Source: Acidobacteriota bacterium
GTDB lineage: Bacteria > Acidobacteriota > Thermoanaerobaculia > Thermoanaerobaculales > Thermoanaerobaculaceae
DNA length: 52,474 bases
Direction: 5' to 3'
Assembly (NCBI GenBank): GCA_003158745.1
Contig: PMLC01000022.1
Coordinates: 1-52,474 of the forward strand
This document shows, in pieces, positions 29,298-44,782 of this stretch (within the stretch, counting starts at the first letter, position 1; each line of letters opens with the position of its first letter). The notes beneath the pieces were generated by a model that saw only the letters and a program-made list of their open reading frames with translations, searched no databases and was not told the DNA's origin. A program made the position numbers and the translations under genes.

Positions 29298-30988
29298 GTG
29301 ACACTGTGAAGACGGTGGTCCGTGGTCCCTGGTCCGTGATCCGTCATCTGGCAATTGCGGCAGCGCTGGTACTCCTCGGCGGTCCGGTCTGGGGACAGGT
29401 GCACACGACCCTCACGGTGCTTTTCACGTCAGACATGCACGCCCACGTCCTGCCCTTCGATGACCTGCGCGACCGACCAGCCCAGGGTTCGGTGGCCCAG
29501 GTCGCTTCGCTCGTCGCACGGCTGCGCAAAACCAACCCGGTGTCGGTGGTGCTCGACGGCGGCGACGCCATCCAGGGCACGCCGCTGGAGTACTACGCCA
29601 TCGCGGCCAAGGGGGCTCCGGGCGAGGATCCAACGATCGAGGCCATGAACCGGGTGGGGTACGACGCGGCGGTGCTCGGCAACCACGAATTCAACTTCGG
29701 TCTCGACGTCCTTCGCCGCTCGCTCGCGCAGTCGAAGTTCACCTGGCTCGCCGCCAACCTGTCCGGCGCCACGGCGGCAGGTCTCCCGGTTCGCGACGAG
29801 CTGATCCTGGAGCGGGGCGGCATCAGGATCGCGGTTCTCGGTCTGACCAACCCCAACGTCCCGCACTGGGACCCTCCGTCGCACTGGCCCGGCCTCACAT
29901 TCAAGGACCCGGTTGCGGTGGCGGCCGCTTGCGTGCCCGGCCTCCGCGAGCGTGCCGACGTGGTCATCGTCGTGGTCCACAGCGGATTCGAGAAAGACCT
30001 CGACACCGGAGCGCCCGACGGCACGGACGACGAGAATTATGCGTACCGCCTGGCACAGCTTCCCGGCATCGACCTTCTGCTCACCGGGCACACGCACCGA
30101 AACATCCCGCCTCGAGCCTTCGGCAAGACGGTGGTGGCCCAACCAGGCCGCTGGGCGGAGTTTGTCACGCGCGTGGACCTCGACCTCGTGCAAGAGGGCG
30201 GCTTCTGGAAGGTGACGAGCTGGCACGGCGAGAACATGCCGACGGTCGCAGAGCCTGCCGATCCGGGCGTGGTGATGGCTGTGGCCCCCGAGGAGGCGAG
30301 GGTGAAGGCCGAGCTGGCCCGTCCCCTCGGCGAGCTGACGGCTCCGCTGAAGGTCGCGGCGCTGCCGATCGGGGACGACCCGAGTGTGGACCTCATCCAC
30401 GCAGTACAGCTCGAGGCGACTGGAGCCCAACTCTCTCTTGCCGCGCCTCTCGGCGGGCGCATCGAGTTCCCGGCGGGGCCGGTTACGCCTCGTTTCGCCT
30501 ACGCGCTGTACCCGTACCCGAACACCCTACTCGTGGTGCGCTTGACCGGGAGCCAGCTCAAGGACGTCCTCGAACACGCGGTTCGCGGCTGGACCGGCGT
30601 CGAGTGCGCCGGGAGCGGTTGTACGCTCCAGCGCGACCCCGGCATGCCGCCCTACGACTTCGACACGCTCGAGGGTGCCACCTACTTGGTCGATCCCACC
30701 GCGCCGGCGGGCCACCGGATCCGCGGACTGCGCGTCGGCGGCGCAGCGGTCCGCCCGGAGGACGTCTTCACGGTCGCGGTCAACTCATACCGAGCCGCGG
30801 GCGGCGGCGGATTCCCGCACCTGGCGGATGCGCCCCGTGTCAAGGAAATCGATCGGCCCGTGGCCGACCTCATCGGCGAGTACATCGCCCGTCACGGAAA
30901 GGTGACGCCCGCTGCCGACGACAACTGGGCTTTCACCATTCCGCTGCGAGATGCCCCGGCTCGAACGCCTTCAGCCCCGCCCAGGTGA
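29294..30988 (+). CDS. Secreted 5'-nucleotidase / UDP-sugar hydrolase family metallophosphatase
   Basis: 564 aa. Signal peptide at about residues 18-36 ([17 protein letters not shown]). The calcineurin-like domain has metal motifs [34 protein letters not shown] and GHTH; the C-terminal 5'-nucleotidase domain has [14 protein letters not shown]. It releases phosphate from nucleotides outside the cytoplasm, which fits the phosphate genes downstream. ATG 29294 overlaps the mutase stop, but the first codons run through a period-7 repeat (29317-29351). GTG 29336, giving a compact signal peptide, is a possible alternative start. Confidence 0.9.
29317..29351. repeat. Heptamer array, word GGTCCGT (about 5 units), overlapping a coding start
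   Basis: Units GGTCCGT, GGTCCCT, GGTCCGT, GATCCGT, CATCTGG. This is the only array of the set that falls in a predicted coding region, at codons 8-20 of the 5'-nucleotidase, just before its signal-peptide core. Confidence 0.65.
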
Positions 30989-31142
30989 GGCAGAAGGCAG
31001 TCCTCGACGGCACAAGGAAACGCTCGCCGGAGTCGGGGCGAGGGACCCCATGTTGGCGGCAAGGAGTGCCGAGCTCGCGGCGACGAGTGCTGCGCCTACC
31101 GGATGAGCTGGAACCGAGGCTCGACCCCTGGGGGAATCGCCT

Positions 31143-31453
31143 GACATGGGTATCCGCTTCGCTCAGGTGAGCACTCATGAGGAGCCCAATATGAGAATGG
31201 ACTGTACCTGTCGCGCATGAGATGAGAGGTTCCTTGTCGCGTGCTACAGAACGCCGACCGGAAACCACCCCTACGAGAACCTCAACGCCCCTGGTCCCAT
31301 CATTGCCACCGTCGCAGCCTGCGCCCATGACAAACTTCTGCAAGCAGTTACCGGTGTTTCGTTCGCCTCCATGGCCTGACCTGAACGGGCACCCCTTTGC
31401 CGAAGCACTAGAACTTCTCCTGAGACAACCTGAGTCAAGGGGATACCCATGTC
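31143..31453. mobile_element. MITE-like or IS-remnant element with 26-bp imperfect terminal inverted repeats
   Basis: GACATGGGTATCC at 31143-31155 is repeated as its exact reverse complement at 31441-31453. The match continues inward, giving 23 identities over 26 positions (second block CTCAGGT on both arms). The element is flanked by GCCT on both sides (31139-31142 and 31454-31457), within a longer shared CGCCTGA, consistent with a 4-base target duplication. The interior has no recognisable transposase or other gene. It fills most of the 493-base gap between the 5'-nucleotidase and the phosphodiesterase. The remaining 31000-31140 holds nothing I can name. Confidence 0.65.
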
Positions 31454-31481
31454 GCCTGATAGCGCTCGAACATTGCGAACC

Positions 31482-33386
31482 TCACGGCGTCCAGGAGTGT
31501 GCCTGCCGGGGCGGCTGCACTCCCGCAAGCGTGGAAACGAACGAAGCAACCTCGGTGAGCGACTCCTCGCGCACGTGTCGGTGGGGGACGCCGGCGCCGC
31601 GAGCGAGCCAGATCGCAGCCACTTCGCGGTGGGAGTTGAGGTAGCCGTGCTGACCGCAGATCTCCGCAGGAACGTGCCAGCTCGTATCCGGGGCTGCAAC
31701 CCCAGCCGCTGCTGCAAAGCCTGGCCGCAGGAACACCACGAGATCACCCGCGTTGGGCGACTCGAGCCCGACCTGCGAGAGCTCCCCTCGGCGGAACATC
31801 GCCTCCACAACGTTCTCCCCTTCGACCTGGGCTTGCGCGAGCGCTACGGCCGCGGCCTGAACGACTGCGTCCTTGTCGGCAGCCTCGACGACTCCGCCGG
31901 GTTCGCGGCCCTTGAGGTTCACGTAGAGGTGGGCGCAGCCGCCGCTCGTGCAGGCCACGATCTTCGACGACGGCGCGACACGCCACCTGTTCTCGACTTT
32001 CTCCGCCGAGGTGAGGCCGGCGCGCACGAGGAGTTGGTTGACGTGGACATCCTCCCAGACCGGAGCCATGCCGTGGTCGGAGACCACGACGACGGCGTCG
32101 TGCGCGAGGTCGAGCGTACGTACCAGTTCGCCGACCGCCCGGTCGCCGACCCGGAACGCCTCGGTGACAATCTCCCGGGCCTCGCTGGCGCGGGCCGGAG
32201 AGTAGGCGCGGTGTCGCGGATCCGTGAGCAAGAACGCGTGCTCCACCTCGTCCGGGATCGGCTGGTAGAGCATCAGGAGGTCGAACCTCTCCCGCGCGAT
32301 GGCTGTCCTCGCACATGCGTTGAAGAACTCGGAGAAGCGCCGCACCTGTGCCCCCATGTCGGCGGTGGTAATTCCTTCCTCCCCGGTGTCGTGCCGTTCG
32401 ACCGCGCGGTCGTCGGGCGGACCCGGCCAGAAGCCGGCCGTTTGCTCCAGCGCCTCGCGGAACTCCCGAGGGTACGCTTCGGTGGAATAGAACCCGCCAC
32501 GGTAGATCGTGACGTGCGATAGGTCGGCGGCGAGCCCTTGGAGGAGGCACCACGCCCCAACGTTCCTTGTGCCGCCGTCCGGGTGCGGGGCGTGGAGCAG
32601 GAGCGGAAACCACTCGCCCACGCGGACCCGGGCGAGCGTGCCGTTCGATATGTCGGCGCCATCGTCTACGACGACGGTGTCGTAATCGATCTTTCCGTCG
32701 TCCGTTGAGTCGAGCGCGGTCAGGGTGAAGCTCACGCTCTGGGGGAGCCCCGGCCCAGTGAGATCAACTGTGAACTCAGCCCGCCGCGCGGGCGAGTAGC
32801 TCACCAAGCCGGACGCGAGTTTCACGGCTGTGAACCGCGCGCCGTCGAAATCGAGCACCCGTGGCCGGGCGGCCGGAGTGTTCACGTAGACCATTCCGAA
32901 GTCGGCCGTGCGAGAAGTGGTCGTGTTGTCGCACCCGGGAAACGTCAGTACGCCGACGCGCTTGCCCTGTCGGCGGAACGCATCCCAGAGCGACTCCGCG
33001 CCCCACGGGGCGTCGAATCCGGACACGGCCTGCAGGATCGGCGTACCCGGACGGTGGAAGATGTTCGACACGATGTCGGTGACGGTCGGGAACGCGCCGC
33101 TGGCGATGGAGGTGTGGCTCACCGCAGTCAGGGTCGGGTTGGCCGGGATTGCACGCTCGACCACGTAGCCGCCCTCGAAGGCGGCAACCCCATCGGGATC
33201 GGTGTAGACCCCGTTCCTGAGGTTCTCCGCGTGACGTTCTGCGGCAAAGCCGTCGAGAGAGAGAAGCACGACGCGCTGGGCCCCCGACGGCGCAGCAGCC
33301 TGGGGAGAGGGCTTGGCGCTTTCGGTAGCGGCGCAGGCGACGATAAGGAACACAGTCGAAGCGGACAAGAGGTTGCGGTATCGCAT
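31482..33386 (-). CDS. Lipoprotein of the alkaline phosphatase superfamily (type I phosphodiesterase/nucleotide pyrophosphatase)
   Basis: 634 aa. An N-terminal lipoprotein signal with lipobox IVAC (Cys18) sends it to the membrane surface. Metal and catalytic residues of the NPP branch are visible: Asp45 in LLSLDGF, nucleophile Thr92 in SHTSIASG, then VVSDHGM and CGQHGYLNSH. It probably cleaves phosphodiester or pyrophosphate bonds of extracellular nucleotides or lipids. It is divergent from pstS across a gap with a Pho-box-like repeat, so it may be induced by phosphate shortage. Its 3' end lies 29 bases from the inverted-repeat element. Confidence 0.88.
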   Translation of the reverse strand: MRYRNLLSASTVFLIVACAATESAKPSPQAAAPSGAQRVVLLSLDGFAAERHAENLRNGVYTDPDGVAAFEGGYVVERAIPANPTLTAVSHTSIASGAFPTVTDIVSNIFHRPGTPILQAVSGFDAPWGAESLWDAFRRQGKRVGVLTFPGCDNTTTSRTADFGMVYVNTPAARPRVLDFDGARFTAVKLASGLVSYSPARRAEFTVDLTGPGLPQSVSFTLTALDSTDDGKIDYDTVVVDDGADISNGTLARVRVGEWFPLLLHAPHPDGGTRNVGAWCLLQGLAADLSHVTIYRGGFYSTEAYPREFREALEQTAGFWPGPPDDRAVERHDTGEEGITTADMGAQVRRFSEFFNACARTAIARERFDLLMLYQPIPDEVEHAFLLTDPRHRAYSPARASEAREIVTEAFRVGDRAVGELVRTLDLAHDAVVVVSDHGMAPVWEDVHVNQLLVRAGLTSAEKVENRWRVAPSSKIVACTSGGCAHLYVNLKGREPGGVVEAADKDAVVQAAAVALAQAQVEGENVVEAMFRRGELSQVGLESPNAGDLVVFLRPGFAAAAGVAAPDTSWHVPAEICGQHGYLNSHREVAAIWLARGAGVPHRHVREESLTEVASFVSTLAGVQPPRQAHSWTP

Positions 33387-43061: not shown

Positions 43062-44747
43062 TAGTGCCAAACAGTGGGTTGACGATGCCGTCCCTTGGTT
43101 TTAGGTTGTTTGTCTTTTCGCCCGCGTGAAACGTGGCGTCCGAGACGGGTACACCTACGAGTACCTCCAGATCGTCGAATCCTGCCGCCGCGGTACCCAC
43201 AGTCCGCCGGCACGTCATTGCGACGCTGGGCCGCAAGGACGAGATCATCGCGGACGGTACACTGGATAACCTGCTGGCCTCCCTCGCCTCGTTCAGCCAA
43301 CGTTTGCAGGTCGTGGAGCGGGTGCGCAGCGAAAGTGTCGCTGCTCAGGCTGCGAGATCCTGGGGGCTATCGCTTGTCTTCGGTCGACTGTGGCAGCGTC
43401 AAGGACTCCCAGAGATTCTGGCTCGCCTCGCCGGCGACCGCCGCTTCGAGCTCGACCTCGAGCGGACCGCGTTTGCCCTTGCCTTGCAGCGCCTGTGCGA
43501 GGCGGGCAGCGACCTCGCGGGATCGCAGTGGCTGTCGACCGTCGAGGCGCCGGGCTTCGAGGGTATCCAGCTCCAGCACCTCTACCGCACCGTGGGCTTC
43601 CTCGCCGAGGTGCGAGAGGAGCTGGAGCGGGAGCTTTACGTCCGGGATCGCGAGCTGGTGTTCATCGACACGACCAGCACGTTTCTCTGGCGGGACGAGG
43701 AGAGCCCACTGGTGCGTCGGGGGCACTCTCGAGACAGAAGGCCGGACCAGCCGCAGGTGGTGCTGTGCGTCGCGGTCGACCGCACCGGCTTTCCCGTCGC
43801 CTGGGACATCCTGCCGGGCAACACGGCGGATGCCAACGCCCACGCGGCGATGATCACGCGGCTGCGGACCCGACTGAAGATCCGGCGAGTGATCGTCGTG
43901 GCGGACCGGGGGATGATCTCCGCCAAGAACATCGAGCTGCTCACCAACTCTGCGGAGGCGCCGTTCGACTTCATCCTCGGCACCCGCATGCGGCGGCAGA
44001 AGGAGGTCTCCGAGGCCGTGCTGGCGCGGGTGGGTCGCTACCAGAGCGTGGCTGACAACCTCGGGGTCAAGGAGGTCATGGTCACAGGGAAGCGGTACAT
44101 CGTCTGCCGCAACCTTCACGAGCAGGTCAAGGACGCCTCTGCACGAGAGGCGATCGTGGCAAAGCTCGAAGCCACCCTGAAGCAGCACGGCCCGAAGTCG
44201 GTAATCGGCAACAAGGGCTTCGCCCGCTTCGTGAGCGTGGCCAAGGGCAGCGTGAGGATCAACCTGAGGGCCGTTGAAGCGGATGCCCGCCTCGACGGGA
44301 AGTTCGTCCTTGCGACCAACACGGACCTCCCAGCCGACGAGGTGGCCCTCGCCTACAAGAGCCTCTGGCGGGTAGAGCGAGCCTTTCGCGAGACCAAGTC
44401 CACGCTGGAAGTGCGGCCGATCTACCACCAGAACGACGATTCGATCGTCGGGCACATCGTCGCGTGGTTCCTCGCGCTCCGGCTCGAGGTGGATCTCCAG
44501 CGTCGGCTCGACGAGTGGGGCTCGCAGGTTTCGTGGCCGGACCTGATGCGGGATCTCCGTCAGCTTTCGGCGGTCGACATGACCCTCGATGGCGAGCCCT
44601 ACAGGCTTCGCACGGAGCACCAGGGTCAGGCCCACCAGGCGTTCGTCGCGGCCGGCGTCAGGCCACCGGCCACGGTGACGCACCTGGGCGACGCTGATCC
44701 ACCGCTCCCGAGGAGCCCTCGACCCAACCCGCAGAATGTAGTGCCAA
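43062..44747 (+). mobile_element. IS1634-type insertion sequence
   Basis: A single transposase gene fills the element. TAGTGCCAA occurs at both edges (43062-43070 and 44739-44747) in the same orientation, so it marks the limits but is not a normal inverted repeat. True ends and target duplications could not be fixed by eye. The right copy falls inside the last codons of the transposase. A GGAAC-TTCGC-GTTCC-TTTGTT hairpin (44823-44843) follows downstream. Confidence 0.6.
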
Positions 44748-44782
44748 CGTTACGATCACGTCTCACAACTCATGCAACATGA
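43126..44782 (+). CDS. IS1634/IS4-type transposase, frameshifted near the 5' end
   Basis: About 550 aa. The DDE core is recognisable: first Asp in VFIDTTSTFLW, second in IVVADRGMISAKN, and the Y-(2)R-(3)E-(6)K-like block WRVERAFRETKSTLEVRP with YHQNDDSIVGHI. The expected N-terminus (GYTYEYLQIVES) is read from GTG 43126 in frame 1, but the rest (VRRHVIATLGRKDE onward) is in frame 2. Removing one C from the CCC at about 43195-43197 restores one frame with RRGTTVRRHVIATLG. The long frame-2 part alone can start at GTG 43133. Probably inactive unless frameshifting occurs. Confidence 0.8.

Follow-up and report, generated by a model that had tools for sequence, protein, structure and literature searches.

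A 307-bp non-coding element in an Acidobacteriota genome is very probably a MITE with IS1595-type ends

Introduction

MITEs carrying the ends of an IS family are well known (PMC3852290, PMC11578231; reviewed in PMC10969869). The ISs of the IS1595 family usually make 8-bp duplications (PMC8101967; ISApl4, PMC12561309), and an insertion that replaces a stem-loop has been described for IS1272 (PMC5678879).

The window analysed here is a stretch of 52,474 nucleotides from an Acidobacteriota bacterium of the family Thermoanaerobaculaceae (GenBank assembly GCA_003158745.1, contig PMLC01000022.1, positions 1 to 52,474 of the forward strand). It contained a short element whose ends and flanking duplication resembled those of the IS1595 family, and which was very probably a non-autonomous MITE of this family, moved in trans by an IS1595-type transposase. 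No IS1595-type MITE of Acidobacteria was found in the limited collection of literature searched, and the present MITE family appears to be undescribed.

Results

The non-coding element spanned positions 31145-31451 of the window (307 bp, without an assigned strand), as defined by the CATG-to-CATG homology common to both copies in the genome. This span corrects the length of 311 bp given in the first-pass annotation. The terminal inverted repeats were 24 bp long, imperfect (21 of 24 bases matched) and started with CATGGGTATCC. The left repeat was CATGGGTATCCGCTTCGCTCAGGT (31145-31168, plus strand), and the right repeat, read on the minus strand, was CATGGGTATCCCCTTGACTCAGGT (31428-31451). The right repeat ran on as TTGTCTCA, which was common to the end beside an IS1595 relic on contig C52 of the same genome. 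The target site duplication, TCGCCTGA, was 8 bp long, matched in 8 of 8 bases and abutted both ends of the element (left copy 31137-31144, right copy 31452-31459, both on the plus strand). The 26-nt inverted repeat with 23 matches that had been annotated previously (31143-31168 and 31428-31453) was seen, but its outer GA/TC belonged to the target duplication. Similarly, the 4-base direct repeat GCCT was located on both sides, but formed only the middle of the 8-bp repeat.

Among 300 Markov shuffles of the 601-bp region, two contained a 24-nt inverted match of at least 21 bases when all spacings were allowed. The inverted repeat by itself was only moderately beyond chance, uncommon but not decisive. 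A perfect 8-bp repeat abutting both ends has a chance of about 1 in 65,000 for a given length. The window element was considered real because this perfect repeat was accompanied by a second copy, and because a relative has the site without the insert.

When the window's own genome was searched, the second copy was found on contig C73 (G000:C73:2154-2458), homologous from end to end, with a length of 305 bp and 95% identity. The two copies shared 291 of 305 aligned bases, with 14 substitutions and one 2-bp gap. The C73 copy was located at a site unrelated to the window site, between convergent genes for a metallophosphoesterase and an Nramp transporter, and the genome contained only these two copies. 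A direct 8-bp repeat did not flank the C73 copy (3 of 8 bases), and in the relatives the convergent partner gene was not found beside the Nramp gene.

The 307-bp element had no copy in 100 relatives, nor among 396 sampled genomes of the phylum. Within the class, the strict end pattern was unique to the window's genome. A looser pattern, CNNNNNTATCCNNTTNNNTCAGGT, occurred about 40 times in 10 of the 147 class genomes, all from the window's order, and its reversed control did not occur in these 147 genomes. In a broad sampling of the phylum, a slightly narrower version of the looser pattern matched only the window's genome and one other (G021). The exact end pattern gave 10 matches in genome contigs, most of them single and in other phyla, which were taken as chance; the match L035 was the same sequence as contig G004:C176 of a same-genus genome. 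The plasmid and phage collections contained no match to the element or its end, and the viral contigs searched for the end patterns contained none.

Several of the end matches paired into elements of approximately 200-400 bp. Twelve unambiguous pairs were counted in the order, with the window copy included and the C73 copy merged with it. A perfect 8-bp direct repeat was located directly outside the ends in 7 of the 12 paired copies, and at least 6 of 8 bases were repeated in nine, whereas no copy had a perfect duplication at lengths of 5-7 or 9-12 bp. In all nine copies with at least 6 of 8 bases, A or T occupied the two positions preceding the duplication, which was most often followed by TA, including in the window copy. 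Five related elements of the same order (L104, L097, L103, L093, and L105) also contained other palindromic extragenic repeats, of the GTGGCGGGCCCTGAAGG...CCCGCC and ACCACGAAGACAC... types, as if small repeats had been inserted within one another.

A Pfam search of the class genomes for the IS1595 transposase domain revealed a complete IS of 1024 bp in another genome of the same order (G031:C399), with the ends CACGGGTATCCCCTTTCCTCAGGT and CACGGGTATCTCCCTTGGTAAGGT. The 308-aa transposase encoded by this IS matched the IS1595 family (NF033547 transpos_IS1595, E 1e-50) and contained a zinc-ribbon (PF12760) and a DDE domain (PF12762). The ends of the window element matched those of the G031 IS at approximately 21 of 24 bases. 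Beyond the ends, the interior of the window element had no sequence in common with this IS, and the window element was therefore not a plain deletion derivative of it. The G031 IS was not flanked by a direct 8-bp repeat (1 of 8 bases).

Such ends were found beside IS1595 transposases in two further genomes. In G021, a single end was located with an IS1595 transposase gene just inside it, and no second end was found in the stretch examined. The other case was a decayed IS1595 transposase of the window's own genome (C52:28974-29225; L024 5831-6310; PF12762, E 2e-8), which had 36% identity to the G031 transposase over 118 aa. This relic adjoined a related end, CACGGGTGTCCTTTTCATTAAGGTTGTCTCA, which has AGGTTGTCTCA in common with the right end of the window element. 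No partner end was found near the relic, and its end gave only weak chance matches in the plasmid and phage collections (E ~3). The window's own assembly, 96% complete in 163 contigs, contained no intact IS1595 transposase with exactly these ends, but a copy may have been missed. Repeated ISs are often lost from MAGs.

It is improbable that another transposase family mobilised the MITE, for instance through an IS4-type enzyme acting on CATG ends, and that the likeness to IS1595 ends was convergent. Some IS4-family elements have ends starting with CATG, as the window element does, and the match to the G031 IS is short. However, the likeness of the ends was specific, given the empty reversed control, and the G031 IS and the C52 relic place such ends beside IS1595 transposases, as does the G021 gene just inside its single end. 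The only DDE_Tnp_1 gene of the genome was of the IS1634 family and had different ends. An IS4 parent, considered from the CATG end, was dropped after the IS1595 evidence. The IS1634-family transposase gene itself was located within the window at 43133-44782 (NF033559, E 9e-101; the only DDE_Tnp_1 match of the genome), and it was rejected as a partner, with no MITE-like ends nearby.

Two convergent genes flanked the window element, read here as an IS1595-type MITE: a gene for a 5'-nucleotidase/cyclic phosphodiesterase, with its end at 30988, and, on the opposite strand, a gene for a type I phosphodiesterase, with its end at 31482. These two phosphatase genes were neighboured by Pst-like transport genes, namely those for a phosphate-binding-like protein and a permease, in agreement with the phosphate-scavenging setting proposed earlier. 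Nothing ties the element to the function of the phosphate genes.

Eight same-genus genomes contained the phosphodiesterase gene, and in four of them the convergent nucleotidase was seen alongside. The nearest same-genus relative with the locus was G001, a sibling species with 79% protein identity. At locus L042 of G001, the same convergent genes were separated by intergenic DNA without an insert, and a single TCGCCCGA was present at the orthologous site. When the window flanks were joined with one TCGCCTGA, they aligned through the junction to G001 with 124 identities and 31 mismatches plus gaps. On this alignment, the simplest reading would be that the insertion followed the split of the window species and the G001 species. 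The orthologous site of G001 forms a GGGGTCG/CGACCCC hairpin, whereas the joined flanks of the window itself did not support a hairpin target.

A DUF2378 gene (PF09536) was intact in G001 between the two convergent genes, and window positions 31037-31114 were a remnant of the C-terminus of this gene (54% identity over 26 aa against G001). In three other same-genus genomes, merely a short gap separated the convergent genes.

Two members of the family, the C73 copy and G030:C150, had no direct repeat, and the 8-mers outside their ends were near-inverted copies of each other, each bounded by TA at a distance of 8 bp. Inverted arms of 8-9 bp, instead of a direct duplication, flanked L002 1501-1805 and L104 1326-1524. 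Such inverted 8-mers would be explained if template-switch repair had extended the inverted-repeat stem across the duplication. By analogy with IS1272 (PMC5678879), they would also be explained by a palindromic target. A broader proposal, which we regard as rather doubtful, is an order-wide Acidobacteriota family of IS1595-type MITEs that prefers WW-N8-TA sites, frequently located at the ends of genes. Within such a family, the stem of the terminal inverted repeats may in some copies have grown outward across the duplication, so that direct 8-mers became inverted; alternatively, the transposase may at times join to palindromic targets without a direct repeat.

The absence of a coding region inside the element, as stated in the first-pass annotation, agreed with the present search, in which no tested frame of the 307-bp element matched a protein family. 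One frame of the second copy was open for 101 codons, but the 2-bp indel between the copies broke this same frame. Coding inside the element was therefore rejected.

The strand of the element folded better than its shuffles (z -3.2), although the fold consisted mostly of the terminal inverted repeat. This fold, the location of both copies between convergent genes and the extra inverted 8-mers that framed two copies of the family could together indicate a long-lived structured element, such as a bidirectional terminator or a small RNA between convergent genes, rather than a mobile one. We consider this very improbable. An Rfam search gave no match, and the differences between the two copies inside the repeats were not compensatory. 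Furthermore, the orthologous site of the sibling species was empty, and insertion is evident from both the 8-bp duplication and the unrelated second site. A mere chance inverted repeat in GC-rich intergenic DNA, which the two shuffles in 300 would allow for the 24-nt match alone, can be dismissed, given that a full-length second copy ends at identical borders, that an 8-bp duplication and an empty site are present and that the ends belong to an order-wide family.

Discussion

The element was inserted at this site, the insertion was accompanied by an 8-bp duplication, and its ends are related to those of an IS1595-family IS. The form of a MITE moved in trans by an unseen transposase, as proposed in the first-pass annotation, was supported, and the transposase family can now be named as IS1595. 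That annotation had suggested looking for other copies of the ends, for a full IS with the same ends and for empty sites in relatives. A full second copy was found at C73:2154-2458, an IS with matching ends in a different genome of the order (G031:C399), and an empty site in the same-genus G001.

Movement in trans through an IS1595-type transposase is, as for most MITEs, an inference. A DDE transposase of the IS1595 type, produced elsewhere in the cell, would bind both CATGGGTATCC...TCAGGT ends, and the element would then be inserted between the convergent 5'-nucleotidase and phosphodiesterase genes. A staggered cut at insertion would produce the 8-bp repeat TCGCCTGA. The interior of the window element is unrelated to the G031 IS, and no intact partner was seen in its own assembly. 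The element is probably stranded now, or nearly so, because only a decayed IS1595 transposase was found in this assembly.

Several points run contrary to the assignment as an IS1595-type MITE. The window's assembly has no intact IS1595 transposase that matches, the interior of the element differs from that of the G031 IS, and the element is present in only two copies in its genome. In addition, neither the C73 copy (3 of 8 bases) nor the G031 IS (1 of 8 bases) has a direct repeat.

With the present element, a poorly studied lineage gains a MITE family linked to the IS1595 family, and the empty site of a sibling species provides a date for it. Short non-coding intergenic repeats in such MAGs can thus be traces of mobile elements and not regulatory RNAs. 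For the understanding of transposition as such, little is gained, unless the inverted flanks of some copies turn out to stem from a genuine target or repair mechanism.

When the window element was compared with ISs of the IS1595 family (NF033547; PF12762 and PF12760), here represented by the G031 IS, the ends were alike (CACGGGTATCCCCTTTCCTCAGGT against CATGGGTATCCCCTTGACTCAGGT of the window), and the 8-bp duplication of the window was of the length typical of the family (PMC8101967), with which it agrees. However, the window element had no transposase gene and no internal sequence in common with the G031 IS, whereas the G031 copy had no 8-bp duplication. MITEPye1 of Paracoccus yeei (PMC11578231) resembles the window element in its small size, inverted-repeat ends of an IS family, direct repeats, low copy number, intergenic location and lack of a transposase gene. 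MITEPye1 belongs to the IS1182 family, whereas the ends of the window element are of the IS1595 type, and its own genome lacks an intact parent IS. The C73 copy and G030:C150 resemble the stem-loop-replacing insertion of IS1272 (PMC5678879) in that they lack direct repeats and are framed by inverted 8-mers, which may point to a palindromic target. However, a stem-loop is replaced and no duplication remains after insertion of IS1272, whereas most of the paired copies described here, including that of the window, have a normal 8-bp duplication.
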